Assembly: GCA_018671515.1 (NCBI GenBank)
Contig: JABHHN010000037.1
Location: 1-56,116 of the forward strand
Length of the DNA: 56,116 nt
Source of the DNA: an archaeon
GTDB taxonomy: Archaea; Nanobdellota; Nanobdellia; Woesearchaeales; GW2011-AR15
Reading direction: 5' to 3'
Made by a program: the position numbers and the translations under genes. The notes beneath the pieces were generated by a model. It did no database searches. It was not told where the DNA came from and was given only the letters and a program-made list of their open reading frames with translations. How positions within the stretch are numbered: the stretch's first letter is position 1; each line of letters starts with the position of its first letter. Of the stretch, positions 12,681-37,270 are shown piece by piece.

Positions 12681-12740
12681 TATAGCAAGCCAGTTCTTGT
12701 CTTGCAAGGGAATTGTGCACGGGATGAAATCACGTGCTAA
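12681..12740 (+). repeat. Two-hairpin dispersed element, copy 1
   Basis: It begins TATAGCAAG. Hairpin 1 is GCAAG/CUUGC, then a pyrimidine mismatch, CA/UG and a GUUCU loop. Hairpin 2 is GCACG/CGUGC, then a G-A mismatch, GAU/AUC and a GAA loop. The same design occurs at 20132-20192 and 37207-37270 with compensating changes. This copy lies in the gap between two convergent genes. Its function is unknown. Confidence 0.6.
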
Positions 12741-12829
12741 GAAATAAATAATATTGATTAATATTATTTAATATAAGATGAATTAATTATATTGGAAAAG
12801 TTACAAATTAAAATGTATTAAGAAAATAC

Positions 12830-13411
12830 TTATCCCATTTTTGTTATGTACATTGCAGCCATAGATAGTATGAAGAATACAAGAATCAATGAAAGCACTT
12901 TAGGATGAAATAATGTAGCACCTAAATTTTGACTAAAATCATCGGATGCTACGTCTCCTGTTCCTGCTGCTTGAGTAGCTGCTAAACTGATAGATTCATT
13001 GCCTCCACCTAAAAATGGTCCAACATTCTGACCTACTGAATTTGATACTCCTAGTGCTATAATTACTAAACTTATTACGAATACAAAGTTATACCATGTA
13101 CCCATATAACCCATGGTTTTTAACCAAGATATTGGATCAGCACCAACAAAAACAGTAATACCTATTAATATCATTACAAATGCAATAATTACAAAAGTAA
13201 TCCATGGAATAATATATCTTATAGCATCTATTGCTCCTTTATTAAATATGAATATCATTCCTATTGCAAATGCAATAGTGAAATTTAATGAAGAGTTTCC
13301 TCCAAAAACTTTTCTTGCAGTTAAAATTGCATATATTGCAACTATTATAAATAATAGTACAAAAATAGAAGAAAAATTGTCTAAAAAAGCAAAATCAAAG
13401 AGTGTTGCCAT
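12830..13411 (-). CDS. Polytopic membrane protein, paralogue 3 of 3
   Basis: A 193-residue protein with about six hydrophobic segments and a short soluble loop around residues 125-155. Near the N-terminus it has FVLLFIIVAIYAIL then KVFG, aligning with LPFLLIFTIAFAVL...SILG and LPFILVFTMIYAIL...KVFG in the two upstream genes, so the three look like a tandem paralogous set. It is the last gene of the minus-strand operon, 1 nt after the previous stop. No known family is recalled. Context next to the secretion ATPase and coiled-coil genes suggests a membrane partner of the type IV-like apparatus. Confidence 0.6.
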   Translation of the reverse strand: MATLFDFAFLDNFSSIFVLLFIIVAIYAILTARKVFGGNSSLNFTIAFAIGMIFIFNKGAIDAIRYIIPWITFVIIAFVMILIGITVFVGADPISWLKTMGYMGTWYNFVFVISLVIIALGVSNSVGQNVGPFLGGGNESISLAATQAAGTGDVASDDFSQNLGATLFHPKVLSLILVFFILSMAAMYITKMG

Positions 13412-13412
13412 C

Positions 13413-14003
13413 TTATTTCTTACCTAGTGCTCCTCCAAATAATTTGTTGACTGTTTCTCTGGTAGTCTCTCTTTTATCTGTAGGATCTTTTGGTTCTTTT
13501 GTTATGAACCAAATCACTATTCCAAATATTAGTAATGTCAATACTAGTGATTGAGTTTCAGGATCATTAAGCCAACTAAGCCAATTAGGTAGACCATGCA
13601 TACCTGTTGCTGAAGTAAATATGTATATAACAATTAAAAATGCACCAATTACAATAAATCCTGCTGCATCTGTTCCAATGAAGCTTATGTCTTTTCCGAA
13701 TACACCAATTAATAATAAAACCATCATACCTGCTACCATTACTAAACCAACATTTGGTATTGCTCTATTTATTATGTTTATTGGGTCTGCACCATCAGGA
13801 TATTGATTAAGTACATGAGGGATAATTGCAGATAGTGCAATTACAAAAGCTACAATTTTATTGTATGGTCTTCTATTATCTCCTAAAATACTTGATTTTT
13901 GTAAAACTGCAAAAGCAATTGTAAATATCAATAAAAATGGTAATAGTACATCTATTAGACCATAACTTTCAAGCATTTGAATCATTTCAGGAAATGTCGC
14001 CAT
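13413..14003 (-). CDS. Polytopic membrane protein, paralogue 2 of 3
   Basis: A 196-residue protein with about five to six hydrophobic segments and a charged cytoplasmic-type tail (EPKDPTDKRETTRE...). The N-terminal signature YGLIDVLLPFLLIFTIAF is nearly the same as IGIYDVVLPFILVFTMIY in paralogue 1, and both follow with a short stretch ending in a Gly. It lies 6 nt after paralogue 1 and 1 nt before paralogue 3, so all three should be made together. The function is unknown, and no catalytic residues stand out. Retention of three copies suggests a hetero-oligomer in the membrane. Confidence 0.6.
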   Translation of the reverse strand: MATFPEMIQMLESYGLIDVLLPFLLIFTIAFAVLQKSSILGDNRRPYNKIVAFVIALSAIIPHVLNQYPDGADPINIINRAIPNVGLVMVAGMMVLLLIGVFGKDISFIGTDAAGFIVIGAFLIVIYIFTSATGMHGLPNWLSWLNDPETQSLVLTLLIFGIVIWFITKEPKDPTDKRETTRETVNKLFGGALGKK

Positions 14004-14009
14004 ATTTAA

Positions 14010-14621
14010 TCAATCCTCGTTACCTTCTTCAATATCTTTAATTTTTTTCTTTCTTTTAGCTTCAGCTGTGTCAGGATTGGAGGTAATTGCTCCAATAGCC
14101 CCGATCATTATTAGCATAAGTATTAATGCTCCAAAAGCAGCATTATCAATATTCTTGACAATAAACTCATATATAAAGTTTAGCCATGGGACGTCATCTT
14201 TTGTGTGTATTGAATTTAAAAAAATAAATATGGTTCCTGCAATCATTAGTCCTGTAAGTCCATTTCTATAACCTTTTTGAAGTTTAAATTCTTTTTCACC
14301 AGTATGAAATACACCAGTAAGCATTAATATACAAACACCTAACAATAGTAATAGTATAATTTGAGCTAAGATTCTATTTACTGCTGCAACAATTTGTGTA
14401 CTTGCAACAACTAAGAATGCTGTTACGAAAGCAAACATACTATTTAGGTTTTTTCTTGTTGTTTCCGTTCCATCACTTAATTTTTCAACACCGAAAACTT
14501 TGGACTTTTCAAGGATTGCATAAATCATTGTAAAAACTAAAATGAAGGGAAGCACAACATCATATATTCCTATGTCATTTAGAAATGCTATCGATCCACG
14601 TAGAGCTGACGGTTCTGCCAT
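14010..14621 (-). CDS. Polytopic membrane protein, paralogue 1 of 3 (operon head)
   Basis: A 203-residue protein with about six hydrophobic segments and a very charged C-terminus (KRKKKIKDIEEGNED). It shares the DVVLPFILVF...AIL.K..VFG signature with the next two genes. A minus-strand TTTATATA box at 14644-14651 lies 23-30 nt before the ATG, giving a leaderless transcript for the three-gene operon. It is probably a membrane component of the nearby pilus/secretion system, on context only. Confidence 0.6.
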   Translation of the reverse strand: MAEPSALRGSIAFLNDIGIYDVVLPFILVFTMIYAILEKSKVFGVEKLSDGTETTRKNLNSMFAFVTAFLVVASTQIVAAVNRILAQIILLLLLGVCILMLTGVFHTGEKEFKLQKGYRNGLTGLMIAGTIFIFLNSIHTKDDVPWLNFIYEFIVKNIDNAAFGALILMLIMIGAIGAITSNPDTAEAKRKKKIKDIEEGNED

Positions 14622-14643
14622 ACTAATAAAAGTGCTGGAAATG

Positions 14644-14651
14644 TATATAAA
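14644..14651 (-). promoter_or_regulatory. TATA box of the three-paralogue membrane operon
   Basis: TTTATATA on the minus strand, 30 nt before the start codon at 14621. It faces the divergent TATA box of the translin gene across a short shared gap. Confidence 0.6.
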
Positions 14652-14712
14652 TCTTTCTATAAGTAATTGGGTTAGAAAAATGATAATATTTAATTTAAAT
14701 CTATAAATTAAA

Positions 14713-14720
14713 TTTATATA
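14713..14720 (+). promoter_or_regulatory. TATA box of the translin operon
   Basis: AAATTTATATAAG with its TTTATATA 34 nt before the ATG at 14747. The spacing allows a leaderless or very short leader transcript. Confidence 0.58.
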
Positions 14721-14746
14721 AGCTATCTTCTTTCCTTTATTTTAAG

Positions 14747-15322
14747 ATGTTAGATGAAAAAGAATTTTTAAAAATATCAAAAGAGCTAGAAGAAGAAGAT
14801 AAGCTAAGAGAATATGTAATCGTTGAATCAAGAAAGATACTAAAGCATTCAAAAAAGGCAATAAATCATGTTCATAATGATAAAATGTCTGAAGCAAAAG
14901 ATGAATTGGATGCAGCAAAAAAAGTCATTTCAAGTATTGAAAAATCAATTATTGGGAAAGATCCTAAAACAAATAGTTTTAGATCATCTTTGGAAGAATA
15001 TGCAGAAGGTTTAACTTTTTATCATTTTGTAAAAGATAAAAAAATACTGACAAAAGAAGAAATTGGTGTTAAAACAGAAACATATCTGCTTGGTTTATCA
15101 GATTTAACTGGTGAATTAGGAAGAAGAGCAGTATATTTGACAACAAAAGGAAAGTATAAAGATGTTAAAAAAATATATGAGGCTGTTGTGATGATATATG
15201 ATGGTTTTTTAAATTTCTCTCTAAGAAATGGTGAGTTAAGAAAAAAATATGATTCTATAAAATGGAATCTCAAAAAAATTGAAGAGATTTTATATGATCT
15301 AAAAATAAGGGATAAAATATGA
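14747..15322 (+). CDS. Archaeal translin-family RNA/DNA-binding protein
   Basis: A 191-residue, all-helical protein matching archaeal translin: GLSDLTGELGRRAVYLTTKGKY followed by the C-terminal RKKYDSIKWNLKKIEEILYDLKIR. Translins form octameric shells that bind single-stranded nucleic acids, and with TRAX they degrade RNA in eukaryotes. Archaeal members act alone, and at least one is a nuclease. Key acidic residues cannot be assigned confidently here. It heads a likely operon: its stop overlaps the next start by 4 nt (ATGA). Confidence 0.85.
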   Translation: MLDEKEFLKISKELEEEDKLREYVIVESRKILKHSKKAINHVHNDKMSEAKDELDAAKKVISSIEKSIIGKDPKTNSFRSSLEEYAEGLTFYHFVKDKKILTKEEIGVKTETYLLGLSDLTGELGRRAVYLTTKGKYKDVKKIYEAVVMIYDGFLNFSLRNGELRKKYDSIKWNLKKIEEILYDLKIRDKI

Positions 15323-15810
15323 CATTTAATGAAAATATAAGTAGATTAAAAGAAAGCAAGATTTTTTTAGAATGGCAAAAAGAGCACGTAGATGCGTATC
15401 TTACACATTGTTTTTTTATGAAAGACAAGATGGTTGAACCTGAATGGCAAATAGGATATTATAATCCTGGTACTGATTTGATTTCAACTTTTGTTATTGG
15501 TGAAAAAATTATAATGAATCCTGATTCAGAAGCATTGAAAAAAGAAGGTATGGTGGATAAATTAGACATTAGTAAAGTAAAAAAAGATTATGTAGATGCA
15601 TTTGAATTAGCAAATAAGGTTCAAGTTGAAGAGTTTAAAACACACACACCAATGAAAAAAATATTCATATTACAAAACATTGAAGGTAAACAAATATGGA
15701 ATGTTACTTATGTTACAAATACTTTTAATACTTTAAATATTAAAATTGATTCCGAGACAGGTGAAATAATTTCAAAAAAACTATTATCAATATTTAAAGT
15801 GGAAAAATAA
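15319..15810 (+). CDS. Small protein with PepSY-like C-terminus
   Basis: A 163-residue soluble protein. The end (IWNVTYVTNTFNTLNIKIDS, then ETGEIIS) has the strand-turn pattern of PepSY-like domains, where a W/V..Y strand leads to a D..TGE(I/L) hairpin; these domains often bind or inhibit proteins. The N-terminal half (EWQKEHVDAYLTHCFF, WQIGYYNP) is not recognised. The ATG overlaps the translin stop, so the two are translationally coupled. It lacks a signal peptide, unlike most PepSY proteins. The function is open. Confidence 0.5.
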   Translation: MTFNENISRLKESKIFLEWQKEHVDAYLTHCFFMKDKMVEPEWQIGYYNPGTDLISTFVIGEKIIMNPDSEALKKEGMVDKLDISKVKKDYVDAFELANKVQVEEFKTHTPMKKIFILQNIEGKQIWNVTYVTNTFNTLNIKIDSETGEIISKKLLSIFKVEK

Positions 15811-15826
15811 GGATCTAAAAAAAAGA

Positions 15827-16180
15827 ATGACCAAGATAAAATTATTTGATAAGTTAAGAAGCAAATTTGTGCATTCAAAGATATTCTATCAGAGAGCTTT
15901 AGGATATATTAGTATAATTAATAGCAGTATGATTTTATTTTTATTTTTGAGTAATTTGGAAAAATATGGTATTGATATTGATTTAAAAAACTGGTTTGTT
16001 CCTCTTTTGATTATTGGTGTTATAGGATTGATTTTTGTTGGATACATGGAAGATAAATTAGGAATATTTACAGCTGAAAGTGGTGCAAGAACCAAAAGAA
16101 ATCCACAGATGCAAATGATAATTGATAAACTTGAAGCAATAGAAAAAGATGTTGAAGAAATCAAGAATAAACGTGAATGA
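15827..16180 (+). CDS. Small membrane protein with C-terminal coiled coil
   Basis: A 117-residue protein with a basic N-terminus (1-22), two hydrophobic segments (about 27-46 and 57-75), a short YMEDKLG linker and a helical charged tail (about 95-117, LEAIEKDVEEIKNK). No family is known to me. It is the third gene of the translin run, 16 nt after the previous stop, and probably co-transcribed. Confidence 0.5.
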   Translation: MTKIKLFDKLRSKFVHSKIFYQRALGYISIINSSMILFLFLSNLEKYGIDIDLKNWFVPLLIIGVIGLIFVGYMEDKLGIFTAESGARTKRNPQMQMIIDKLEAIEKDVEEIKNKRE

Positions 16181-16311
16181 TTTTAATTCCTTTGCAATGA
16201 CTTCCTTTAAAAATTTTATACAATTAAAACATATATTTTGAAAATCAATATAATTTATATATGCAAATATTACAGTAAATAATAAGTAAAAATTATCTAA
16301 AATTTTGACTA

Positions 16312-16317
16312 GGTGAA
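16312..16317 (+). promoter_or_regulatory. GGTGAA ribosome binding site of dut
   Basis: GGTGAA 8 nt before the dut ATG. A TATA-like ATTTATATATG lies further up (about 16252-16262), so dut should have a leader of roughly 40-50 nt, unlike the leaderless genes around it. Confidence 0.5.
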
Positions 16318-16325
16318 TTAAAAAT

Positions 16326-16754
16326 ATGGTAGATGTAAAAATAAATAAATTAGACGATTCTATGACAACTCCTCATTATGCACATGAAGGGGATGCAGGA
16401 ATTGATCTTCGATCAAGTGAAGAAGTTACAATTAAACCAATGGAAACAAAAATTGTCAAAACTGGACTAAAAATGGCTATTCCTAAAGGATATGTTGGTT
16501 TAGTTTGGGATAAAAGTGGATATGCTGCTAAAAAATCAATGACTACAATGGCTGGAGTAATTGATTCAGGATATAGAGGAGAAATTGGTGTAGTTATGAA
16601 AAATCTTGGTGAAGAAGAATTTGCAATTTCAAAAAATATGAAAATAGCACAGATTTTAATTCAGCCAATAACTAGAGCAAATTTAATTCTTGTTGATTCT
16701 TTAGAGGACACAGTAAGAAGTGAAGGCGGATTTGGAAGCACAGGTACACACTAA
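16326..16754 (+). CDS. dut: dUTP diphosphatase
   Basis: A 142-residue trimeric-type dUTPase with all five motifs in order: I HEGDAGIDL (20-28), II DKSGYA (58-63), III GVIDSGYRGEIGVVMKN (76-92), IV KIAQILIQP, V RSEGGFGSTG at the C-terminus. The enzyme hydrolyses dUTP to dUMP and diphosphate. It keeps uracil out of DNA and feeds dTMP synthesis. Motif II has DKS where many members have a GRS or PRS. Thymidylate kinase and dCMP deaminase lie within 4 kb, so this is a pyrimidine deoxynucleotide neighbourhood, although on mixed strands. Confidence 0.95.
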   Translation: MVDVKINKLDDSMTTPHYAHEGDAGIDLRSSEEVTIKPMETKIVKTGLKMAIPKGYVGLVWDKSGYAAKKSMTTMAGVIDSGYRGEIGVVMKNLGEEEFAISKNMKIAQILIQPITRANLILVDSLEDTVRSEGGFGSTGTH

Positions 16755-16755
16755 A

Positions 16756-16902
16756 ATGTCAACTGAAGAAAATAACAAAAGAAAAGGTACGACAATTAGT
16801 TATAAATCAATGATTTCATCAAAATCACTTAGTTCTTTTTTTCCATCAGAAGAAAAAAAATCTGAAGAAAAAAACCTTAAGAAAGATCTTGAAAAAGAAT
16901 AA
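16756..16902 (+). CDS. Small Ser/Lys/Glu-rich protein after dut
   Basis: A 48-residue ORF starting one base after the dut stop (TAAA-ATG). The sequence is low complexity: an N-terminal TEENNKRKG, a middle serine cluster (SSKSLSSFF) and an alternating Lys/Glu tail. There is no known family. The tight spacing and good start suggest it is translated with dut, but the composition alone does not prove it is a gene. Confidence 0.4.
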   Translation: MSTEENNKRKGTTISYKSMISSKSLSSFFPSEEKKSEEKNLKKDLEKE

Positions 16903-16931
16903 CTACTTATAAGTGGTTAAAAATAGAAAGA

Positions 16932-16939
16932 TTTATATA
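16932..16939 (+). promoter_or_regulatory. TATA box of the 53-residue CxxC protein gene
   Basis: TTTATATA exactly 30 nt before the ATG at 16962. This spacing recurs before several other genes here and marks a leaderless transcript. Confidence 0.58.
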
Positions 16940-16961
16940 CTACTTATCTATATTTTATTAT

Positions 16962-17123
16962 ATGGCATTTTATCATAAAGATATTAAAGATAAATGGAAG
17001 AAGTGTGAGCATAGGACTATAAATTTTTGTAATATAAATGATAGACTTATAGAGACACCTCTTGCAATGGTAACTAATTGTGGTAATTGTATTGCTAATC
17101 AGAAAGAACCAAATATTTTCTAG
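16962..17123 (+). CDS. 53-residue Cys-containing small protein, leaderless
   Basis: A short ORF beginning MAFYHKDIKDKWKKCEHRT, with cysteines at 15, 23, 40 and 43 (the last pair CGNC) and a histidine at 17. Four Cys in two groups suggest a metal-binding (zinc-ribbon-like) mini-protein. Support for reality is the TTTATATA box exactly 30 nt upstream and the ordinary composition. It is convergent with the SleB-like gene, 17 nt away. It is not a recognised family. Confidence 0.5.
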   Translation: MAFYHKDIKDKWKKCEHRTINFCNINDRLIETPLAMVTNCGNCIANQKEPNIF

Positions 17124-17140
17124 GGGTTTAATTTTATTTT

Positions 17141-18148
17141 TTAAGGACAATTACATTCAGGTTTTTTATTAATATGTAAAGATCCATGACAACAATAATA
17201 TGTTACATCAAATTCTTGAAAAATTCTACAGTTAGGAATAAATTTTCCTGAATTTTTATTGTCATTTGGGAAACCACAATAATCAGGTACAAATGTAGTA
17301 GATAAACTTGCTTCATTCCAACCTTCTTGAACAGTTTCAGATGTTTGTGTAGGTGTGGCAGTTGGTGGTGTGATTTCTTTAGAATTTTTATTTGTTGAAC
17401 CAACAATTGAATTTAAATTATTTTGGTTTTGTGAATAATCTATATTTAAATTACAAGGTTTACCACATATCATCATTTTTGTGTGAAGATCATTATTAGA
17501 AAATCCTTTTTTATTAGTTATTCCTAGATTACCACAAGGGTTAGCATTATTAGAAGCAAAATAGCAATATTCACCTAATTCAAGAATATTTTTTTTATTT
17601 TGTAAAATATATTTATTTATTATTTCATCAACAATCTTTTTTGTTTTTTCAGCATACGATCTCCTACCACCATATCCTGAATCAATGCAGTTTTGTATGT
17701 AATCCTCATTATCAGGATAAGTTTGTGAACAAATTGCTTTGATTTGTAATTCAACTCTTTCTAAAAAAGTCTTAGAATCTATTTCATTGTTTTCTTTGAA
17801 CCAATTATGTACTAAATGGTGTTTTAGATTTAAGTCATATGGATAATCATTATAATTTACTGGAGTAAATTGATTTTTTCTTAATATATTATTTTCAATA
17901 TTTTCACTAAGTGATTTTTGTTTATCTGAAAATTCAGTACTATGAGCACGATTTAGAATGACTATTGTTATTCCCCTTATATTATCTTCATTTTCAGTAC
18001 CCCATATACTTTCAGCAAATATAATTTTATATAAAATATTAGTAGCTCTAGAAGTTATTTGATTATTTTCTAAATTTGATTCAGGAACACTACAATTAGA
18101 AAAAATTAATAATGTTAATAATAAAAATACAGAAAAATGAATCTTCAT
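17141..18148 (-). CDS. Secreted SleB-like (Hydrolase_2) cell-wall hydrolase, possible lipoprotein
   Basis: A 335-residue exported protein with a hydrophobic signal peptide ending in FSNC (Cys19), a weak lipobox. Residues ~35-190 resemble the SleB/CwlJ hydrolase fold: LYKIIFAESIWGT, then NIRGITIVILNRA, then a KNQFTPVN segment matching the 'QF' site of that family. Glu46 in FAES would be the catalytic acid. SleB enzymes are lytic transglycosylase-like and cleave peptidoglycan glycan strands. A Thr/Pro-rich linker and a Cys-rich C-terminal ~55 residues follow. Domain resemblance is by eye. The target in an archaeon is unclear, and prey or host bacterial wall is one option. Confidence 0.6.
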   Translation of the reverse strand: MKIHFSVFLLLTLLIFSNCSVPESNLENNQITSRATNILYKIIFAESIWGTENEDNIRGITIVILNRAHSTEFSDKQKSLSENIENNILRKNQFTPVNYNDYPYDLNLKHHLVHNWFKENNEIDSKTFLERVELQIKAICSQTYPDNEDYIQNCIDSGYGGRRSYAEKTKKIVDEIINKYILQNKKNILELGEYCYFASNNANPCGNLGITNKKGFSNNDLHTKMMICGKPCNLNIDYSQNQNNLNSIVGSTNKNSKEITPPTATPTQTSETVQEGWNEASLSTTFVPDYCGFPNDNKNSGKFIPNCRIFQEFDVTYYCCHGSLHINKKPECNCP

Positions 18149-18180
18149 AATTTATATGATTTTATTAATATATATAAAAT

Positions 18181-18861
18181 TTACTTCAAAATATTATTGA
18201 CTTCATTAAAAATACTTTTAGATATTTCATCAACAGATAAACCAATATTTTCATTTACACATTTGATATTAATCCAATTATTTCTAGTGTTGCAAATATT
18301 TACATATTCATTATATACTTTTTGTAAGAAGACTTTATTTGATTCATATTGGTCTTTTTGCTCGCCATCAATATAATCTCTTTTTTTTTTTGTCTTTATC
18401 CATTCTTGTGATACAGATAATGGGACATCTAAAAACATGACAAGATCTGGTTTAGGAATTTCATTAGTATCATATTCTAAATTTTCAATCCATTTTGTAA
18501 ATTTTTCTTTTTTTTCATCATCTTTGAATTTTGCTCTGTTGAACGCAAGGTTTGACGGGACATATCTATTAAGAATTATTATTTTTCCTTCTTCCTTCCA
18601 TTTGTTAAGATCTTCTTTACCTTCAAATCTATCACCAGCATAAAGTATTGAGGATGAATATGGATCAATTTCTGTAGGATCTCCGAATTCCCCTTTTAAG
18701 AATTTTCCAATTAATTTTCCATAAAAAGAAGTATAGTATTGTGGGAAATCTTTTGTCTTGATATCATAACCTTTTTTTATAAGGTTTTCAATAAGAATTT
18801 TTGTTTGTGTGCCTTTACCTGATGCATCCACACCTTCAAGGACTATAATTTTTCCAGTCAT
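18181..18861 (-). CDS. tmk: Thymidylate kinase
   Basis: A 226-residue P-loop kinase: EGVDASGKGTQ (9-19), a FPQYYTSFYG substrate loop, a YAGDRFE segment near 75 and an LNRYVPSNLAFNRAK DRY-like motif near 98-112. It phosphorylates dTMP to dTDP. The lid carries basic residues (KTKKKRDYIDG), as in kinases that place the basic groups in the lid. It stands near dut and dCMP deaminase. A gap of 32 nt separates it from the downstream SleB-like gene on the same strand. Confidence 0.92.
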   Translation of the reverse strand: MTGKIIVLEGVDASGKGTQTKILIENLIKKGYDIKTKDFPQYYTSFYGKLIGKFLKGEFGDPTEIDPYSSSILYAGDRFEGKEDLNKWKEEGKIIILNRYVPSNLAFNRAKFKDDEKKEKFTKWIENLEYDTNEIPKPDLVMFLDVPLSVSQEWIKTKKKRDYIDGEQKDQYESNKVFLQKVYNEYVNICNTRNNWINIKCVNENIGLSVDEISKSIFNEVNNILK

Positions 18862-18959
18862 AGTGTTTTGGTCTTTTTAGAAATTAATAAAGATTTTGAT
18901 AAAATAAAAATAATACAATTAACATAATCTTTTTATTCAATCAATATTTTAAATTTATC

Positions 18960-19505
18960 ATGAAAATAATTGCAATAGTTGGATTAACAGGTTCAGGAAA
19001 GAGTGAAACTGCAAAAGTCATTGAGACTAAAGGATACACAAAAATTAGGTTTGGAGATATTACAGATGAAGAGATTCATCAAAGAGGATTGGAACTAAAT
19101 GAGAAAAATGAAAAATTCGTTCGTGAAAAATTAAGAGATGAATTAGGTATGGGTGCATATGCAATAAAAAATATACCTAAAATAGATAAGGCAGTTGAAG
19201 AGGGAAAACAGATTGTAATTGATGGCCTTTATAGTTGGGAAGAATATTTAGAACTTAAAAAAAAATATGGTGATGATATAATTATTTTAGCAGTTTATGC
19301 TCCTCCTAAGGAAAGATATAAAAGACTGGGTGTACGAAATATTAGACCATTAACAAAAGAAGAAGGACAGTCAAGAGATATTGCAGAAATTGAAAATATC
19401 AATAAAGCAGGTCCTATTTCTATGGCAGATTATACAATTCTAAATACTGAAACATTAAAAGAATTGGATGAAAAAACTATAAAATTTTTAGAATCAGAAA
19501 ATTAA
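18960..19505 (+). CDS. UPF0200-type P-loop kinase (dephospho-CoA kinase-like)
   Basis: A 181-residue NMP-kinase-like protein with Walker [10 protein letters not shown] (8-16), [20 protein letters not shown] and [11 protein letters not shown]. These match the archaeal UPF0200 pattern (GD..RGL.....LR...G..A). Some relatives are annotated as nucleotide or dephospho-CoA kinases, so the substrate is not settled. Its 3' end overlaps the dCMP deaminase gene by 4 nt (convergent). Confidence 0.78.
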
Positions 19506-20029
19506 GATTCAAAATTTATAATTAAATTTTTTCTATTTGATTGTAATTTTGTATATTTTACTTTTGCCATGTCAAGCATTGTTTTTGATGCTTTGACTTG
19601 GTGAGTATCTTTATATTTATCACTTAGATACACAATTTCTTTTATTCCTGATTGAATTATAAGTTTAGCACATTCATTGCATGGAAATAATGCGACATAT
19701 ACTTTTGCACCATGAAGTTTTTCTGTAGAATTTAAAATTGCATTTGCTTCAGCATGGACAATATATGGATATTTTGTGTCATTTGGATTATCTGCAGTTC
19801 TATTCCATGGAAGAAAATCATCTGAGCAGCCTTTGGGAAAACCATTATAACCAATACCAACAATTCGATTATTTGAATTAACTATGCATGCACCAACTTG
19901 TGTACTAGGATCTTTGCTTCTTTGTGCTGAAATCAGAGCAACACCCATGAAGTATTCATCCCATGTTATGTAATCTTTTCTTTTGGTTACTTTTTTTGAA
20001 ACATTATTTTCTTCTTCTGTATTTTCCAT
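19502..20029 (-). CDS. dCMP deaminase
   Basis: A 175-residue zinc deaminase. Zinc and catalytic residues are plain: HAEAN (His92, Glu94) and PCNEC (Cys117, Cys120). The N-terminal [19 protein letters not shown] and [11 protein letters not shown] are typical of dCMP deaminases of the ComEB/DCTD group. It converts dCMP to dUMP, supplying thymidylate synthesis with dut. A charged 15-residue N-terminal extension precedes the core. It overlaps the UPF0200 gene by 4 nt at the 3' ends. Confidence 0.92.
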
Positions 20030-20131
20030 GTTGAAGTAGATGATTTGTTTTTTATACTTAAAGTTATCTCTTCAGTATTTATTGAGTAGCAATTTGTATC
20101 TTTTTTCTTTTTATATTATTACATATTAATT

Positions 20132-20192
20132 CCATAGCAAGTCAATTTCTGCCTTGCATACTTTTGCAGACCGCTTAGCGAGTTGCAATATG
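20132..20192 (+). repeat. Two-hairpin dispersed element, copy 2
   Basis: It begins CCATAGCAAG and ends TATGG, which pair to close the unit. Hairpin 1 is GCAAG/CUUGC with a pyrimidine mismatch, CA/UG and an AUUUC loop. Hairpin 2 is UUGCA/UGCAA, an internal loop, then CGC/GCG with a UUA loop. Compared with copies 1 and 3 the second stem changes on both sides. It lies between two minus-strand genes. Confidence 0.6.
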
Positions 20193-20248
20193 GAAATCAA
20201 AATAATTATTAAATAAAATATATAATAAATTTTAGTAAAAATGTAATT

Positions 20249-20904: not shown

Positions 20905-20957
20905 AGAAAAAAGTTAATTGAATCTAATATTTAAATTGTACTCAAAATTGGTTTTAT

Positions 20958-24077: not shown

Positions 24078-24099
24078 TCTAATTGATGATGAAATTTAT

Positions 24100-26420: not shown

Positions 26421-26442
26421 TAGGATTGAATTTTTTATTTGG

Positions 26443-29277: not shown

Positions 29278-29296
29278 ATATTTTTAAACCTCAAAA

Positions 29297-30733: not shown

Positions 30734-30816
30734 ATTACAGGTGTATTTTAGATTATTTTCTTTATAAAATTTTCTTATCATTAAATATATAAACTTGAGT
30801 CATTAAAGTATTATTA

Positions 30817-31530
30817 ATGAAATTAAAGAAGATTGGTAAATTATCAATCAAAGAAATAATTTGGATAACAATTTTCTTATTATTTATAGTATTGATTGTT
30901 AAATTTTATCCAGCAATAATAAATTTCAATCAAAATGAAAAACTTATTGGTGATCTTGTTTCAAAATTTGGAAAAAATGGACCTGTTATTTTAACATTGC
31001 TTCATATAATTCAAAATATAATTATTGTATTTCCAGGTCCAATTTTTACAATTACAGGGGTTTTTATGTATGGTCCAAAAATAGGATTCATCACAAATAT
31101 GATTGGAACAACAATTGGTTCTACAATATTATTTTTTATTGCTAGAAATTTAGGACATAAAAAAGTAAAAAAATTTCTAAATAGAATTTCAAGTAATAAG
31201 GATATTAAGCATTTTGAAAAAATGATAGAAAAAGATGAAAAATATGCACTCATAATTTCAAGGATAGCACCACTTATTCCAACAGAAATAGTTACATTAC
31301 TTTGTGGACTTACAGAAATGGAACCTGATGAATTTATTCTTTTAAATACTCTTTTTTTCTTTCCTCGAATATTTTTAGAGAATTACTTTTTTGGAGAAAT
31401 GCAAAATGGTTTTCATGGTCCTATTGGAAAAATATTACTTATTATTGGAGTTGGATTTGTGTTAATATATTTATTTAGACACAAACTAAAAAAACTCTTC
31501 ATTAAAGAACTAAGACATATTGAAGCATAA
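30817..31530 (+). CDS. VTT-domain (TVP38/DedA-like) membrane protein
   Basis: A 237-residue protein with five to six helices. The core shows FPGPIFTITGVFMYGPKIGF, then a GTTIGSTILFFIARNLG segment, then ISRIAPLIPTEIVTLLCGLTEM, the two half-loops of VTT (VMP1/TMEM41/TVP38) proteins. Members move or scramble lipids such as undecaprenyl phosphate or phospholipids. Which lipid is moved here is not known. A TATA-like AATATATAA lies about 30 nt before the ATG, and the next gene (MFS) follows after 42 nt. Confidence 0.8.
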   Translation: MKLKKIGKLSIKEIIWITIFLLFIVLIVKFYPAIINFNQNEKLIGDLVSKFGKNGPVILTLLHIIQNIIIVFPGPIFTITGVFMYGPKIGFITNMIGTTIGSTILFFIARNLGHKKVKKFLNRISSNKDIKHFEKMIEKDEKYALIISRIAPLIPTEIVTLLCGLTEMEPDEFILLNTLFFFPRIFLENYFFGEMQNGFHGPIGKILLIIGVGFVLIYLFRHKLKKLFIKELRHIEA

Positions 31531-31572
31531 TTTTTAGTAAGTATTTTATATTATTAAATTTTGAATTGAACA

Positions 31573-32769
31573 ATGTTATTCAAAAAAGATGAAATAAAAC
31601 ATCTCTGGCCATTCTATTTGTACTCATTGATTTTTGGTTTGTGTTTTATGATTATGCCTTTTATGATAATCTATCTTAGAGATATAGGATTTACTTTTTT
31701 TCAAATCAGTATTCTTATGTTTTCATATGGTTTATGTACATTAATATTTGAAATTCCTACAGGAGCTTTGGCAGACAGTTTTAGTAGAAAATATTCAGTA
31801 TTGATTGGATTTATAATTACAGGTGTTGCAGCTATGTTTATACCTCTTTTTGAAACTTTTTATACTTCAATTTTTGGCTGGTCATTAGCGGCTATAGGAA
31901 TTACGTTTACAAGTGGTGCAGAAGAGGCATGGATTATTGACAATCTAAATCATCTTAAAAGAAAAGATCTTCATCATGAATATTTTATCAAAGGTGCAAG
32001 CATTTCAGCTTTAGGAATGATAATATCACCTATTTTGGGTTCAATCATTACGAAAACATATCCAATAAAAATTTTATGGTATTTCTTTGGACTTGGATTT
32101 TTTTTAAGTGCAATAATACTTGGATTTTTTGCTCCAGAACATTATAAACCTAAAAAAGAAAATATGTTTCATGCTTTAAAAAAATCACTGATAAATGCAA
32201 AAGAAGGATTTAATTTTGTTAGAAATCATAATACTGTTTTTTTATTGATATTTGGTTATGTTATAAGTTACCTGATGTTTATGGGGAAAGAAGGATGGAC
32301 ACCACTATTAGTAACTTTAGGATTGCAGGAACATTCATTAGGATATCTTTATGCTATTTCAGCATTTTTTATGATGATAATTCCATTTTTATCAAGATAT
32401 TTTACAAAATTTAAAGTTAAGTATGTGGTATCAGTCACAATTTTAATACAAATGATTTTTGGATTTATGATATTATTTGTTACATCAAAAAATTATGTTT
32501 TTGGTTTATTGATATTTACAATATTAAATGTGCTTCCACATTTTAATACGCCATTATTGAAGACTTATTTTCATAAATTTGTACCTAAAAAAACCCGTGC
32601 AACAGTCAGTTCAATAGAAAATATGGCTTTTCAATTTGTGGGCTCAGTATTTGCTTTAGTAGCTGGCTATTTGATGGATTTATATGGTCCACAAAAAGTT
32701 ATTGGATGGACTTCTTTATTAGGGGTATTTTCAATTATGATATATTTGAAGATTAAAGATGAGAAATAA
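31573..32769 (+). CDS. MFS transporter
   Basis: A 398-residue, 12-helix protein. Motif A between helices 2 and 3 reads FEIPTGALADSFSRKYSV, typical of the small drug/sugar exporters with a FE-PTG-x-A-D core. The central loop is basic (PEHYKPKKENMF). A likely proton-driven exporter. A second, similar MFS gene lies at 48827-49999. ATTTTATATTA lies about 32 nt before the ATG. Confidence 0.87.
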   Translation: MLFKKDEIKHLWPFYLYSLIFGLCFMIMPFMIIYLRDIGFTFFQISILMFSYGLCTLIFEIPTGALADSFSRKYSVLIGFIITGVAAMFIPLFETFYTSIFGWSLAAIGITFTSGAEEAWIIDNLNHLKRKDLHHEYFIKGASISALGMIISPILGSIITKTYPIKILWYFFGLGFFLSAIILGFFAPEHYKPKKENMFHALKKSLINAKEGFNFVRNHNTVFLLIFGYVISYLMFMGKEGWTPLLVTLGLQEHSLGYLYAISAFFMMIIPFLSRYFTKFKVKYVVSVTILIQMIFGFMILFVTSKNYVFGLLIFTILNVLPHFNTPLLKTYFHKFVPKKTRATVSSIENMAFQFVGSVFALVAGYLMDLYGPQKVIGWTSLLGVFSIMIYLKIKDEK

Positions 32770-32777
32770 TTTTGGAG

Positions 32778-33467
32778 CTATTTCATAATATTTCCATTTT
32801 TCATGGACCAAAGTAGTAGGTCCATTTCATCCATGTCAATATTTACATCTTGGCAGAATTTGATAAATTTAGATTCAATTTCTAAATATCTTTTTTTATT
32901 TAGAGATTTAGGTACTTCTGATATTACACCATATTCATGAAGTGTTCTTAATATATGTTTATCTAGGATAGTTATTCCAAAATAACCTACATTTCTTAAA
33001 AAATGACTCGCTTCTTTATACGCTAACCCTTTTACAGTTACAAAATATTCTCTTGCGTCAATTGAATTTTGAAATGAATCAATATGTTTTTTTAATTCAA
33101 GATTGATTTCATCACTTAATTTTTTTCTAGCTTCAATTATATATTCAGCTCTTTTATTTGGAAATCTATATCCACTTGAAACAAGTGCATCTCTTATATT
33201 TTCATATTTTCCATTTAATAAGAATGGTCTAACTTTATCAATTCCTTTCATACCCATGACTGCAGAAGTATTTGCTGTAAGTAAACAAAAACATAGTTCT
33301 TCAAAAATGATTTGATCTCTAGATAATTCTATTTTTTTTAGAATCATCTTTTTATCTTCATAAAACCATGATTTATTTTCTAAATGAGAATTTTTGAATT
33401 CATTAAGACGTTTTTGAATATCATCTTTTTTGATTTGATATTTTTTTTTTAGAATTTTTATTTGCAT
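32778..33467 (-). CDS. ogg: 8-oxoguanine DNA glycosylase/AP lyase, Ogg2 family
   Basis: A 229-residue HhH-GPD enzyme of the archaeal Ogg2 type. FEELCFCLLTANTSA opens the fold, VKGLAYKEASHFLRNVGY carries the catalytic Lys (151), and ILDKHILR carries the catalytic Asp (169). It excises 8-oxoguanine opposite C and then cuts the strand by beta-elimination. The length agrees with the family (~205-230). The C-terminus ends in Lys, as is usual for Ogg2, where it contacts the damaged base. It is monocistronic and convergent with the MFS gene. Confidence 0.9.
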   Translation of the reverse strand: MQIKILKKKYQIKKDDIQKRLNEFKNSHLENKSWFYEDKKMILKKIELSRDQIIFEELCFCLLTANTSAVMGMKGIDKVRPFLLNGKYENIRDALVSSGYRFPNKRAEYIIEARKKLSDEINLELKKHIDSFQNSIDAREYFVTVKGLAYKEASHFLRNVGYFGITILDKHILRTLHEYGVISEVPKSLNKKRYLEIESKFIKFCQDVNIDMDEMDLLLWSMKNGNIMK

Positions 33468-33540
33468 TTTTTCATAAAACTTTAATTTCTTAATAAAATT
33501 AGTTGAATTTAAAGTAAATAAATTTTTAAGTAAGAATGTT

Positions 33541-33921
33541 ATGACAAATATTATGGAAACATTTACAATAATTTTGATTGCAGCTTTTTTATTAGCAATA
33601 TTTATAATAATAAAAATTGTAAAAAAATTAGCAGTAAAAATAATATTTATTACTTTAGCAATTTTAGGTTTAATATTTCTATTGAGTTTTGTTAATATTG
33701 CATTTTTTGATTTTCAATGTATTGATTCTAAAAATATCTGTTCATCTAGTATTTTAAGAGCAAATGGAGAAAAAGTTACTAGTGTATATTTTTATTCTCA
33801 ATGTCAACAAGATTGTTCAGTAAGGAATTATAGGTGTGGGTATGATATAGATTATTATAGTGAATGTAACGATTGTATAGGGAATTGTCAATCTGATCAA
33901 GAATGTATGAGTAATTGTTGA
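33541..33921 (+). CDS. Two-helix membrane protein with Cys-rich end
   Basis: A 126-residue protein: helices at ~8-26 and ~31-55, then an exported tail with ten cysteines (SQCQQDCSVRNYRCGYDI, CNDCIGNCQSDQECMSNC). Unknown family. It resembles other Cys-rich exported proteins in this window. The stop lies 17 nt before the 3' end of the tRNA gene on the opposite strand. Confidence 0.48.
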   Translation: MTNIMETFTIILIAAFLLAIFIIIKIVKKLAVKIIFITLAILGLIFLLSFVNIAFFDFQCIDSKNICSSSILRANGEKVTSVYFYSQCQQDCSVRNYRCGYDIDYYSECNDCIGNCQSDQECMSNC

Positions 33922-33938
33922 ATTTCTATAAAAAAATA

Positions 33939-34013
33939 CGCGCCTAGGAAGATTTGAACTCCCGACCTTTACCTTAGGAGGGTACTGCTCTATCCAAGCT
34001 GAGCTACAGGCGC
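33939..34013 (-). tRNA. tRNA-Arg (anticodon CCU)
   Basis: The minus strand folds to a full cloverleaf: acceptor GCGCCTG/TAGGCGC with one G-U; D arm GCTC...GAGC; anticodon stem with loop CTCCTAA, so anticodon CCT reading AGG; T arm GGGAG-TTCAAAT-CTTCC. The discriminator is G73 and no CCA is encoded. The top pair of the anticodon stem is G-A, a mild deviation. No intron is present. An AGG-reading tRNA suits an AT-rich genome that uses AGA/AGG for Arg. Confidence 0.93.
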
Positions 34014-34069
34014 ATGTGTAAACTAAAATCAAGAGCTATTTTTTAAATTAATTGTTTTTTCTAGTCTTT

Positions 34070-35062
34070 ATGTATAGAATTAAACAAATACCTGAAGATT
34101 TTATAGTTGAAGAGCAAATTGAATTAGATTTTGATGAAGATGGAAAATATACTTATTTTCAACTTGATAAAAAATCATGTAATACAGAAGATGCAATAAT
34201 CTCTATTTCTAAAAAATTAAGGATACCAAGAAATGCATTTAATTATGCAGGTGCAAAAGATAAGAATGCACTTACAAAACAATGTGTTTCAGTAAGAGGC
34301 AGTATAAGAAATTTTGAAAATAATGAAATAAAAGTAAAAGTATTAGGAAAAGGAAATAAACCAATTTTACTTGGACAATTAACTAAAAATAAATTTAATT
34401 TAATTATAAGGAAAGTTAATGAAAGACCTGAAAAAATATCATTTATTCCTAATTATTTTGATGATCAAAGATTTGGTAGGAATAATTTGCAAATAGGATT
34501 AAATATTTTAAAAAAAGATTTTAAAAATGCTGCCAAATCAATTGAAGATAAAAGGACACTTGAATTTTTAAAAAATAACCCAAATAATTCAATTGGTGCA
34601 ATAAGATGCATCCCATTTATAATACTTAAGATGTATATCAATTCTGTACAAAGTTATATTTTTAATGAAGCATTGAATATTTTGATTAAAGAAAATTCTA
34701 AAAATTTGACAAAAGTGGATTATAAACAAGGAGAATTTTTTTTCCCAAAAGAATTTATTGAAATAGAGAATCTTCCTTTGATTTCTTTTGATACAATATA
34801 TTCTAATAGTAAGTTAGAAAATATATATAATGAAATATTAAATAATAATAATTTAACAAAAAATAATTTTATAATTAGATCAATTTCAAATATAACACCT
34901 CATGGTGATTTAAGAAATGCATTTGTTGAAGTAGAAGACTTAAATATATCTGAACTTTATGATGATGAATTAAATAAAAATAAAAATAAAATAAAAATAG
35001 ATTTTTCTCTTTCTAAAGGAAGCTATGCAACAGTTGTTATAAAATCATTATTTTCAAAATAA
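34070..35062 (+). CDS. truD: tRNA pseudouridine synthase TruD
   Basis: A 330-residue protein from the Met at 34070 (MYRIKQIPEDFIVEE, the standard TruD opening; the ORF runs 6 codons further up). The catalytic Asp is in GAKDKNALTKQ (Asp64). PNYFDDQRFGRNN (~135) is the family's RNA-binding motif, and GSYATVVIKSLF closes the domain. TruD makes pseudouridine 13 in tRNA. It is shorter than many archaeal homologues (~400), suggesting a reduced insertion domain. It follows the tRNA-Arg gene on the other strand. Confidence 0.92.
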   Translation: MYRIKQIPEDFIVEEQIELDFDEDGKYTYFQLDKKSCNTEDAIISISKKLRIPRNAFNYAGAKDKNALTKQCVSVRGSIRNFENNEIKVKVLGKGNKPILLGQLTKNKFNLIIRKVNERPEKISFIPNYFDDQRFGRNNLQIGLNILKKDFKNAAKSIEDKRTLEFLKNNPNNSIGAIRCIPFIILKMYINSVQSYIFNEALNILIKENSKNLTKVDYKQGEFFFPKEFIEIENLPLISFDTIYSNSKLENIYNEILNNNNLTKNNFIIRSISNITPHGDLRNAFVEVEDLNISELYDDELNKNKNKIKIDFSLSKGSYATVVIKSLFSK

Positions 35063-35139
35063 TTTTTTGAACCAATTGATAATCTTTTCAATAAATATTG
35101 CTTTTTAGATTATTTTAAAATTGAATTTATAAATTTGGT

Positions 35140-36441
35140 TTAATCAAAAAAATAATGGTTAGTACAATCATTTTGATAAATTAAAGGGAATAAATTACAT
35201 TTCCAAATTCCTTTTTTTGGCTTAGTATTAATATAACTTTCAATTCTATCAATAATACCATTGTAACAATATTTTTGATATTTTGATTCAACATTTTTAC
35301 AATAATTTAATGACATTGTTAAATTAGAATGAGTTAAAATATGGAGTTCTTTTCCAAAACCAAAATGACAGTTTTTAATGAATGTTTTAGGAACAAGATT
35401 GCAATGTTGGTTTATATTCATTTGAGAATTGTTTTCAATTTTTTTTTGAATTATTAATTCACCAAAAATTTCATAACATAGTTCTGTATATTTCTTTGAA
35501 ATATTATTACAATAATTTAAAAGGTTTTCAGTTTTGTTGATATGAATTGTAGATTTAAGGCTTCTTAATAACCCAAATATACATGGTTTTTCGTATTCAG
35601 ATTTTTTACATATTGAAACTTTATCATTTTTAGAACTATATCCAATATATTTTCCATATGCTCTAAAACAATCTTCTTTATTTTCAATTGGAACAAAATT
35701 ACAAAAATTAAGAATTCTATCTTTCATTAAAAGAGCATTATGATTTATACAACTATATGGATGCGCATCATCAGATTTTGTACAAGCTTGTGTTATTTTA
35801 TCAAAATAAATATTTGAATCTGAATTAAGTGTTAATTCATCAGCTATTATATAGAAACATTCTGAACGCCAGGACGGATTTGATATATTTGAGCAAAAAT
35901 CTAAGAAATATGGAAAATATATTTCAACATTGTCAATAAATTTAGGAATTACACTAATTGCTAAATAAAATTGACATTCACCTTGTAACAAATCATTTTC
36001 TAAATTGTTACAACTAATTTCATTTGAATGTTCTAATAATTTAAATTTTTTTATTGCAACATTGATTTGATTATAGAATTTATTATATTTACTATTATTC
36101 TTGAAATATTCAGGTGTACTTAAAAAAGCAAGTATATGAGTTCTATATACTAATCTTTTACACATATATTTGTAATAAGGATTAATTATGTTATCACATT
36201 GGCTATTTTTTAGAAAACAATAATTTTTTTGCTGTTCATTTTTTATATGATCACAAATAGTATTTATATTATTTTGAAACTGAATTGAATTTTTTTTCTC
36301 TTTAAATGGAGTAGTATTTTTGATTGAATATAAACTTAAAAAATTTATAATGATGATAATTATGGTTAATAAAAATAAAATATTAATGAATATTTGGATA
36401 TTTGAATTATTCTTTTTTTTCATTTGAATTTTTTTAATCAA
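35140..36441 (-). CDS. Membrane-anchored protein with eleven Cys-pair repeats
   Basis: A 433-residue protein with one N-terminal helix (~14-38) and a large exported region. It has 22 cysteines arranged as eleven C-x8-11-C pairs, for example CDNIINPYYKYMC, CSNISNPSWRSEC, CNNISKKYTELC, CNLVPKTFIKNC. Each pair is followed by an aromatic residue and, in many, a Gly, with units of ~35-40 residues. The pattern recalls disulfide-braced helical repeats such as Hcp/Sel1-like proteins, but a family match is not certain. It is likely a surface binding scaffold. Confidence 0.58.
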   Translation of the reverse strand: MIKKIQMKKKNNSNIQIFINILFLLTIIIIIINFLSLYSIKNTTPFKEKKNSIQFQNNINTICDHIKNEQQKNYCFLKNSQCDNIINPYYKYMCKRLVYRTHILAFLSTPEYFKNNSKYNKFYNQINVAIKKFKLLEHSNEISCNNLENDLLQGECQFYLAISVIPKFIDNVEIYFPYFLDFCSNISNPSWRSECFYIIADELTLNSDSNIYFDKITQACTKSDDAHPYSCINHNALLMKDRILNFCNFVPIENKEDCFRAYGKYIGYSSKNDKVSICKKSEYEKPCIFGLLRSLKSTIHINKTENLLNYCNNISKKYTELCYEIFGELIIQKKIENNSQMNINQHCNLVPKTFIKNCHFGFGKELHILTHSNLTMSLNYCKNVESKYQKYCYNGIIDRIESYINTKPKKGIWKCNLFPLIYQNDCTNHYFFD

Positions 36442-36458
36442 ATATTAATTTATTATTC

Positions 36459-37082
36459 TTATTTTAGTGATTCAATAGTTGCATTATATATTTCATTTAT
36501 TTTAGGTCTCGCATCAATGTTGATTATATTTCCTTTATTGGTATAATATTCGATAAGTGGGGATGTCTGTTTATTGTATACTTCTAATCTTACTTTTACA
36601 GCGTCTTCCTTATCATCAATTCTTTGAACAAGGTTTTCTCCACATTCGCACTTTCCTTCATTTTCTGGAGGATTGAACATTAGATGATACATTTTTTTAC
36701 ATTCAGGACAAGTTCTTCTTCCAGAAATTCTTTTTACTACTTCTTCATTTTCAAGTTCAAAATTTATTACTTTATCAATATCTTGAATTCCGTCTAAAAA
36801 TTCTGCCTGGTTGATAGTTCTTGGATATCCATCCAATATGTATCCAATATTGCAATCATCTCTTGATAATCTATCTTTTACCATATTATTTGTAACTTCA
36901 TCAGGTACAAGATTTCCTTGGTTCATGAATTTGGCAGCAACTTTTCCAAGCTCAGTATTATTTTTAAGATTTTCTCTAAATATATCTCCTGTTGATATAT
37001 GTAATATATTAAGTTCTTTAGATATTAATTCTGCTTGTGTTCCTTTTCCTGCGCCAGGAGGACCTAAAAAGATAAGTTTCAT
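36459..37082 (-). CDS. adk: Adenylate kinase, bacterial type with Cys4 lid
   Basis: A 207-residue kinase: FLGPPGAGKGTQA (5-17), LHISTGDIFREN, GYILDGYPRTINQA near 80-93. The lid domain has a Cys-x2-Cys (RTCPECKKMYH) and a later CECG, a zinc-binding lid. This long-lid form is the bacterial/eukaryotic type rather than the trimeric archaeal AdkA, and some DPANN archaea carry it. It interconverts ATP, ADP and AMP. A GGTGAT lies 3 nt before the ATG. Confidence 0.93.
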   Translation of the reverse strand: MKLIFLGPPGAGKGTQAELISKELNILHISTGDIFRENLKNNTELGKVAAKFMNQGNLVPDEVTNNMVKDRLSRDDCNIGYILDGYPRTINQAEFLDGIQDIDKVINFELENEEVVKRISGRRTCPECKKMYHLMFNPPENEGKCECGENLVQRIDDKEDAVKVRLEVYNKQTSPLIEYYTNKGNIINIDARPKINEIYNATIESLK

Positions 37083-37085
37083 ATT

Positions 37086-37091
37086 ATCACC
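37086..37091 (-). promoter_or_regulatory. GGTGAT ribosome binding site of adk
   Basis: GGTGAT with a 3-nt spacer (AAT) before the adk ATG, the same motif and arrangement as the HTH regulator at 52133. Confidence 0.5.
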
Positions 37092-37206
37092 AAGAGTTTC
37101 ATAATTTATTATGATTTAAAAAAATTCCTGATTTGGAGAAACTAATTTTAAATTTAATTGAAATCTTGATTTTTTTATGTTTTATTTTTGAATTATCAAT
37201 AATTTA

Positions 37207-37270
37207 CTATAGCATGTGACCTAAAGGTCCCATGCAAGAAATTACAAAGCAGGAACTGATTTGCTATGGC
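37207..37270 (-). repeat. Two-hairpin dispersed element, copy 3
   Basis: On the minus strand it begins GCCATAGCAAA. Hairpin 1 is GCAAA/UUUGU with a U-C mismatch, CA/UG and a GUUCC loop. Hairpin 2 is GCAUG/CAUGC, a G-A mismatch, GACC/GGUC and a UUUA loop. The stems differ from the other copies by paired changes. It ends TGCTATAG and lies in the 234-nt gap between adk and the protease gene. Confidence 0.6.

Follow-up and report, generated by a model that had tools for sequence, protein, structure and literature searches.

Miniature inverted-repeat transposable elements (MITEs), among them ERIC, RU-1/2/3 and the archaeal PATEs, are short, non-coding, dispersed sequences with inverted ends. REPINs or BIMEs are likewise short and intergenic; they are present in many copies and contain a spacer flanked by two hairpins in inverted orientation, each hairpin having a conserved foot, some groups showing a mismatch in mid-stem, and the stems differing by complementary changes (PMC3116915, PMC2817692 and PMC8266576, in the parts dealing with these repeats). 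The variation of REP stems through complementary mutations has been described (PMC2817692), a further precedent for such features exists among REP sequences (PMC3733652), and in Escherichia coli TnpA(REP) requires both the foot motif and the mid-stem bulge in a single-stranded hairpin (PMC8266576). Comparable repeats also include families with terminal inverted repeats that are linked to RAYT proteins (PMC3733652), and the mobile GC clusters or double-hairpin elements of mitochondria, which are GC-rich palindromes in AT-rich intergenic DNA that undergo modular merging and shuffling (PMC4478555). In this work, we have analysed a two-hairpin element that occurs three times in a stretch of 56,116 nucleotides (contig JABHHN010000037.1 of assembly GCA_018671515.1, the whole of which is referred to as the window) from an archaeon of the order Woesearchaeales. 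Based upon the evidence presented below, we consider, with a probability of about 0.6, that it is a dispersed DNA element of the MITE/REPIN kind, non-autonomous and about 99 bp in length, rather than an RNA gene. It is most likely new in its sequence, dyad-symmetric and of the known hairpin-pair kind.

The source genome of the window (G000) consists of 1,880,298 bases in 120 contigs and is 89.6% complete. Two models were used for searching: a covariance model (R1) built from six aligned copies (alignment A2), in which the CATA/TATG outer feet were treated as paired, and a half-element model (R2) built from 47 half-units read from the outside inwards (alignment A4). The latter alignment and a further one of 30 copies (A3) were both selected by eye. 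A literature search for miniature inverted-repeat or palindromic repeat elements in DPANN archaea returned no paper, most subscription journals being outside its coverage.

Covariation of the Two Hairpins

The three copies in the window (12681-12740 and 20132-20192 on the + strand, and 37207-37270 on the - strand) have the sequences that a preliminary description of this DNA had ascribed to them. When the window was scanned with the hairpin-1 consensus ATAGCAARYCARTTYYTGYYTTGY, allowing up to three mismatches, three matches were found, each free of mismatches, as compared with 0.04 expected (none of 100 shuffles reached three). The change in the first stem from GCAAG/CTTGC to GCAAA/TTTGT is real, the outermost pair of the latter being G-T. 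The stem changes reported for the second hairpin are also real, but its single mismatch is not seen in copy 2, which has a 2x2 internal loop at this position. The folding of single copies was unremarkable (z of -0.6 to -2.6 for the six copies in R1), and for two of them (C2:10701 and C99:1773) the lowest-energy fold differs from the two-hairpin fold; hence the structural case rests upon a comparison of the copies.

This comparison bears out the proposal that the paired changes reflect a constraint on hairpin structure, as both hairpins covary in the 30-copy alignment. For the hairpins together with their feet, the paired cells amounted to 83.9% as against 73.4 ± 0.9% after shuffling, a count tilted towards hairpins by the fact that most copies were found with a structure-bearing model. 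The double-changed cells numbered 79 as against 30.0 ± 4.4, and the covariation was 0.295 as against 0.126 ± 0.011, with none of 500 shuffles reaching any of these values and structures slid by one to three columns giving at most 0.107. Similar results were obtained with the 47 half-units, where 70 double-changed cells were found as against 22.1 and the covariation was 0.418 as against 0.151 (none of 500 shuffles). The copies form subfamilies, so that the cells in all of these counts are not independent of each other, and the shuffles take no account of relatedness.

No covariation was observed for the feet alone (0.168 versus 0.162 shuffled, 30 copies), nor for the terminal boxes described below (0.105 versus 0.136). 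A closed three-way junction formed by a CATA/TATG outer stem, which had seemed supported in six copies, was therefore rejected in favour of a conserved foot, and a long outer hairpin running through the boxes was rejected because the covariation of its pairs did not exceed that obtained after shuffling. As R1 was built with paired feet, a bias in the search cannot account for the feet failing this test while the hairpins pass it. These results indicate that the hairpins have been kept as structure, and the feet and boxes as sequence.

Apparent Mirror Symmetry of the Element

The layout given earlier was correct as far as the hairpins are concerned; it had overlooked the inverted terminal boxes, the CATA/TATG feet and some 50 more copies in the genome. 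Read from the outside inwards, each half of the element comprises the box TTnnATYAnnA, which is rich in T, a spacer (left, 7-18 nt; right, 7-14 nt), a foot (CATA, CCTA, CAGA, TATA, CACA or similar), a hairpin of the form GCA..TGC and an A. The second half is an inverted unit of the same kind, separated from the first by a short linker, and the distance from box to box in the 30 copies is 91-110 bp, with a median of 99. The T-run of the left box is conserved, and the right boxes are weak in copies 1 and 2 of the window. In the same alignment, the foot is CATA in 12 of 30 cases for hairpin 1 and in 15 of 30 for hairpin 2, whereas GTAG or CGTC occurs in neither. The inverted orientation of the boxes is shown by a weight matrix trained on the left flanks, which gave the reverse-complemented right flanks a score of 7.8 bits and the unreversed ones 0.5; the Markov null was -0.1 ± 0.6 bits and none of 500 draws reached the observed value.

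The symmetry is also seen in the mismatches of the stems, of which the box test is independent. In 35 strings of each hairpin, read on the + strand, the mispairs that are neither canonical, wobble nor A-C consisted of 13 pyrimidine-pyrimidine and no purine-purine cases in hairpin 1, as against 2 and 40, respectively, in hairpin 2 (Fisher p 7e-11), which corresponds to one mismatch class viewed from opposite strands. The stem was perfectly paired in 18 of 35 and contained the mismatch of its class in 12 of 35 cases for hairpin 1, the corresponding numbers for hairpin 2 being 0 and 31 of 35. Additionally, in three copies (L020, L047 and L051) the left half holds the type of hairpin that is usual in the right half. 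The element looks like one unit present in two inverted copies, with halves that resemble mirror images of each other, although the unequal frequency of mismatches speaks against their full equivalence.

Copies and Variants in the Genome

The preliminary description had proposed covariance-model searches of this genome and of related DPANN genomes. In the source genome this search revealed further copies, at 28 places with E < 0.01 in addition to the six from which R1 was built. The model gave 57 rows at E ≤ 10 and, by hand count, 34 distinct places at E < 0.01. Apart from the six model copies, 27 of these places hold elements of the main type and one (C4:13543) holds a three-hairpin relative; seven of the 34, also counted by hand, were matched on both strands. 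With R2, 90 half matches were obtained at E ≤ 1, of which 66 make up 33 inverted pairs not more than 80 bp apart. Two of the 24 half matches without a close partner represent one overlapping pair on contig C2, and six are parts of copies that R1 had already detected; a second hairpin was present near all of the 13 that were inspected except C103:17963, and the other three are C54:3840, C86:38743 and C103:2512. Outside the window, the hairpin-1 pattern had two matches with one mismatch on C2 and one with three mismatches on C99, the last of which is a true copy; a match on C44 was dropped.

Several types of variants were observed. In some the linker is longer and the second hairpin is perfectly paired (e.g. 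L076, L077, L079, L080 and L082, and also L055), and others have short hairpins with CTCG..CGAG (L078 and L081, and also L035 and L058). At four loci (L049, L057, L059 and L062, on contigs C4, C72, C6 and C10) three hairpins follow in a row together with similar AT-rich ends; the core TAGCAAG..CTTGCATATG sits in the middle hairpin, and at each locus none of 100 shuffles folds equally well. These copies are possibly a separate family with common ends. In total, the family has about 50 copies in this genome. The gene context was tabulated for 52 hand-picked copies, 13 of which are variants with ends set by hand and hence with approximate gene distances; this table omits weak matches such as L006, L056, L063 and L087, as well as the four three-hairpin copies.

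The genome also contains a second repeat on contig C26 (L150:17264-17478 and L153:5441-5628), which extends over 93 bp with 84% identity and has an AACTCG..CGAGTT hairpin in one copy.

Distribution in Other Genomes

The search of related genomes revealed nothing convincing, in contrast to that of the source genome. When 59 relatives were searched with R1, six had a match at E ≤ 0.1 (best 0.0017), including G005 and G009 of the same family. Among the nine same-family genomes, R1 gave only weak matches, three in G005 (best E 0.0017) and one in G009 (0.044), and R2 gave none. Seven of the eight weak R1 matches in the six relatives lie inside an open reading frame (ORF) of at least 100 codons, the exception being L041 (G009). 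R2 had one match in 117 relatives (G102, E 0.03), located outside any ORF of at least 100 codons; it was rejected, the best R1 score in its locus being 9.8 bits and at a different spot. Similarly, the one R1 match at E ≤ 0.001 in 370 other genomes of the phylum (G226, E 4.3e-4, 27 bits) lacks the base of the hairpin-1 stem, lies within a long ORF and was rejected. A pattern for one subtype had no match in 351 other genomes of the same order. Its single matches in public genomes and in viral contigs were read as chance: the former is a GC-rich contig labelled Planctomycetota, to which R1 gave 9.5 bits, and the latter was not listed by R1 at E ≤ 1. The large searches of relatives used stricter filters, by which weak matches are lost, and the genome sets overlap; a lone distant relative of the element may exist. 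No genome of the same genus was present among the relatives found, so that the family may be confined to a single genus or even a single species.

Self-BLAST of intergenic regions recovered a cluster of nine from 139 regions of the source genome, whereas no recognisable cluster of the element was present among the clusters listed for G002 (106 regions) and G007 (111 regions), both searched in the same way; for G002 and the source genome, the listing covered the two largest clusters. G002, which belongs to the same family, has a dispersed intergenic repeat of its own of about 100-140 bp (L138:4553-4992, L142:11633-11941, L147:17087-17438 and others). The self-BLAST cluster containing it includes 15 of the 106 regions and may join more than one repeat, and no Rfam match was found in L137, L138, L142 and L146.

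Dispersal and Likely Nature of the Element

The mean identity of 40 cores was 60%, as compared with 54-55% for unrelated AT-rich flanks aligned by the same method, and the best pair of cores was 91% identical but only 57-60% identical outside of the core. The flanks of the best pair are thus unrelated, and these identities indicate that the element itself has spread, rather than larger segments containing it, and that this spread was not recent. The cores have a GC content of 43% and the flanks of 17.5%. In 29 gaps between tandem genes, the core lies at a median of 60 bp past the upstream stop and 105 bp ahead of the downstream start (p 8e-6), a placement that the loss of insertions close to promoters would produce.

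In being short, non-coding and dispersed, with inverted terminal boxes, the element resembles MITEs, but no autonomous parent or target duplication was found and its internal hairpins are under structural constraint. The likeness to REPINs and BIMEs extends to the paired inverted hairpins, the feet, the mid-stem mismatch and the complementary stem changes. It differs from these in having a CATA-like foot instead of GTAG or CGTC, an extra conserved box outside each foot, far more diverse hairpin sequences, no detected RAYT or Y1_Tnp protein, and an archaeal host. As the GTAG foot and the RAYT are missing, we do not class it as a REPIN. The families with terminal inverted repeats cited above are linked to a RAYT (PMC3733652), whereas none was found here. 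The mitochondrial GC clusters differ in being organellar, shorter, often identical in sequence and flanked by short direct repeats, and the portion of that account describing them mentions no inverted boxes (PMC4478555).

The copies may have been spread by an enzyme acting in trans that would recognise the boxes together with the folded, single-stranded hairpins, in a manner resembling the reading of REP hairpins by TnpA(REP)/RAYT. If only foldable copies were recognised and copied, the hairpin structure would be retained, and copies would persist at places where promoters are spared. A more specific version of this proposal, which we put forward tentatively and regard as rather unlikely in its entirety, is that the element is an archaeal counterpart of REPINs, built from two- or three-hairpin modules with inverted duplex-recognition boxes, and served by a non-Y1 enzyme that would read both the duplex boxes and the folded hairpins.

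A number of observations weigh against a mobile DNA element. The copies are old, as judged by the core identities given above, and no recent movement is visible. The two halves are not fully alike, the frequency of mismatches differing between the hairpins (12 versus 31 of 35). Direct repeats of 3-9 nt were not clearly more frequent at the edges of 30 copies, which are uncertain to within a few bases, than in mismatched copy pairs. Larger target duplications are not made by IS200/IS605 elements (PMC2817692, in its treatment of these elements), and such a mode would account for this result, but the age of the copies or their uncertain ends explain it as well. The case for an empty site is weak: leuD and leuB are separated in the source genome by 202 bp containing a variant copy, whereas in G008 about 45 bp separate the homologous ends and both genes share one ORF (598 aa), and G038 has a gap of about 140 bp that, by eye, does not contain the element. 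A second synteny case, glycogen synthase and its neighbour, was rejected, as in none of the seven relatives with a match do these genes lie next to each other. No autonomous copy was seen among the half matches that were inspected in the genome. Lastly, neither a Y1 transposase (PF01797) nor TnpB (PF07282) was found above cut-off in the assembly, an absence that is not firm, given an assembly completeness of 89.6% and a search that did not extend to the DDE transposase families. A sub-threshold Y1_Tnp match on contig C7, with five stops and antisense to a 590-aa ORF, was dismissed as chance. In a survey that includes 172 complete archaeal genomes, one IS200-type subclass is given as the only Y1 subclass seen in archaea (PMC6006769, in the part dealing with these transposases).

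Two other observations were made in the course of these searches. The single 598-aa ORF of G008 (L112, around 800-2560), in which the homologues of leuD and leuB are joined, represents a fusion or a lost stop, these genes being separate in the source genome. The tyrosine recombinase family PF00589 has three matches in the source genome. One of these is a 181-aa protein (C9:36765-37310, L029:1745-2290; E 6.7e-12) with a start 178 bp from an element core, and as judged by eye it lacks the usual catalytic residues.

Gene Context and Alternative Explanations

The copies could instead be fixed host sites that function as DNA, for instance by blocking transcription in both directions or by binding a factor concerned with the nucleoid or with topology, an explanation that we judge to be unlikely. 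Archaeal transcription is known to terminate at U-runs, and the T-rich box, which is met at the entry on both strands, could halt transcripts arriving from either direction. The intergenic location nearer to the upstream stop, the conserved T-run of the left box and the inverted boxes, which fit a dimeric protein, agree with this proposal. However, the binding of a protein to a site does not by itself need covarying hairpins with a retained mismatch, and no convincing copy was found in the nine same-family genomes searched. Further, of 50 copies with both neighbours, 15 lie between divergent genes, where a terminator is least needed, and 6 between convergent genes (p 0.08).

That the copies are dispersed and intergenic, as stated in the preliminary description, has held up, none of the tabulated copies lying inside a long ORF as predicted by a crude ORF caller (ORFs of 60-82 aa that overlapped five copies were disregarded); their identity as RNA is doubtful. 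Under the RNA reading, the copies would be a multicopy family of small RNAs, in which one strand would be transcribed and the two-hairpin RNA would act in trans or remain within mRNAs, an explanation that we consider improbable. An RNA should favour G-U over A-C mispairs, but on the + strand these numbered 11 and 12 (13 and 13 under wider pairing; the numbers are small). The conserved inverted boxes do not pair, the feet do not covary, and the mismatch class is mirrored between the hairpins. The orientation relative to tandem genes is even (16 versus 13, p 0.71), and at the divergent sites no read-through mRNA would include the element, although a small RNA might still be made from a promoter of its own. 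A Pfam scan of 50 of the 102 flanking proteins, and of two beside L029, revealed mixed functions (including adenylate kinase, cytidine deaminase, seryl-tRNA synthetase, IF-2, isopropylmalate dehydrogenase and transporters; 14 of the 50 had no match), with no pathway or function common to the proteins scanned. The covariation in both hairpins (none of 500 shuffles) is what a small RNA would require, and their unequal mismatch frequency might be shown by two domains of one RNA. Rfam covariance models detected only tRNAs (in the window at gathering scores, and in eight element loci at E ≤ 1), which is also to be expected of a new RNA family.

Recombination sites that are folded from a single strand, such as the attC sites of integrons, have core boxes of the form RYYYAAC..GTTRRRY. 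This combination was present in the proper order in none of 30 copies, and the copies are dispersed in both orientations rather than arranged in cassette arrays, so that such sites are very improbable here. The imperfect dyad of about 100 bp with foldable strands and the three tyrosine recombinase matches are in accordance with them; however, the 181-aa protein lacks, by eye, the usual catalytic residues, and with about 100 flanking genes the location of one of three integrases by a copy is unsurprising. Lastly, template switching inside quasi-palindromes is a known mutational process that makes one arm the complement of the other, but there is little chance that the covariation is its by-product: it would agree with the joint change of both arms and with the 18 of 35 perfectly paired hairpin-1 stems, but should erase mismatches, whereas 31 of 35 hairpin-2 stems retain a purine-purine mismatch even though adjacent pairs change, and the inverted boxes remain conserved.

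Features of the Copies in the Window

Table 1. Boxes and hairpins of the three copies of the element, in window coordinates.
Feature	Positions	Strand	Basis
Copy 1, left terminal box TTGAATTATTA	12662..12672	+	sequence, alignment A3, box test
Copy 1, hairpin 1, preceded by foot TATA	12685..12705	+	sequence, folding, alignment
Copy 1, hairpin 2, GCACG/CGTGC, G.A mismatch	12717..12737	+	sequence, folding, alignment
Copy 1, right terminal box, inverted, ATTAATCAATA, first base off consensus	12752..12762	-	A3; half-model C119:12716-12767 (-), E 0.012
Copy 2, left terminal box TTTATATTATTA	20110..20121	+	sequence; half-model C119:20106-20158 (+), E 2.7e-4
Copy 2, hairpin 1	20137..20157	+	sequence, folding, alignment
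Copy 2, hairpin 2, 2x2 internal loop	20166..20186	+	sequence, folding, alignment
Copy 2, right terminal box, inverted, weak, TTTAATAATTA, off consensus at Y	20203..20213	-	A3; half-model C119:20165-20218 (-), E 0.094
Copy 3, left terminal box TTTTCATCATTA	37277..37288	-	sequence; half-model C119:37243-37292 (-), E 2.1e-6
Copy 3, hairpin 1, GCAAA/TTTGT	37244..37264	-	sequence, folding, alignment
Copy 3, hairpin 2, GCATG/CATGC, G.A mismatch	37212..37235	-	sequence, folding, alignment
Copy 3, right terminal box, inverted, TTGAATTATCA	37188..37198	+	A3; half-model C119:37183-37236 (+), E 1.5e-5

Elsewhere in the window, positions 9025-11466 (-) encode an 813-aa protein, residues 345-702 of which match ATPases of the archaellum and type IV secretion systems at scores well below the curated cut-offs.

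Significance of the Element

In bacteria, repeats consisting of pairs of hairpins are well known, as is the class of enzyme associated with them. As no Y1 enzyme is visible in this archaeon, the occurrence of a structure-constrained family of about 50 copies raises the question of what copies the element. The results presented here also indicate that covariation among intergenic repeats need not imply an RNA, as in the present case the strand-neutral mispairs and the inverted, non-pairing end boxes point to DNA.

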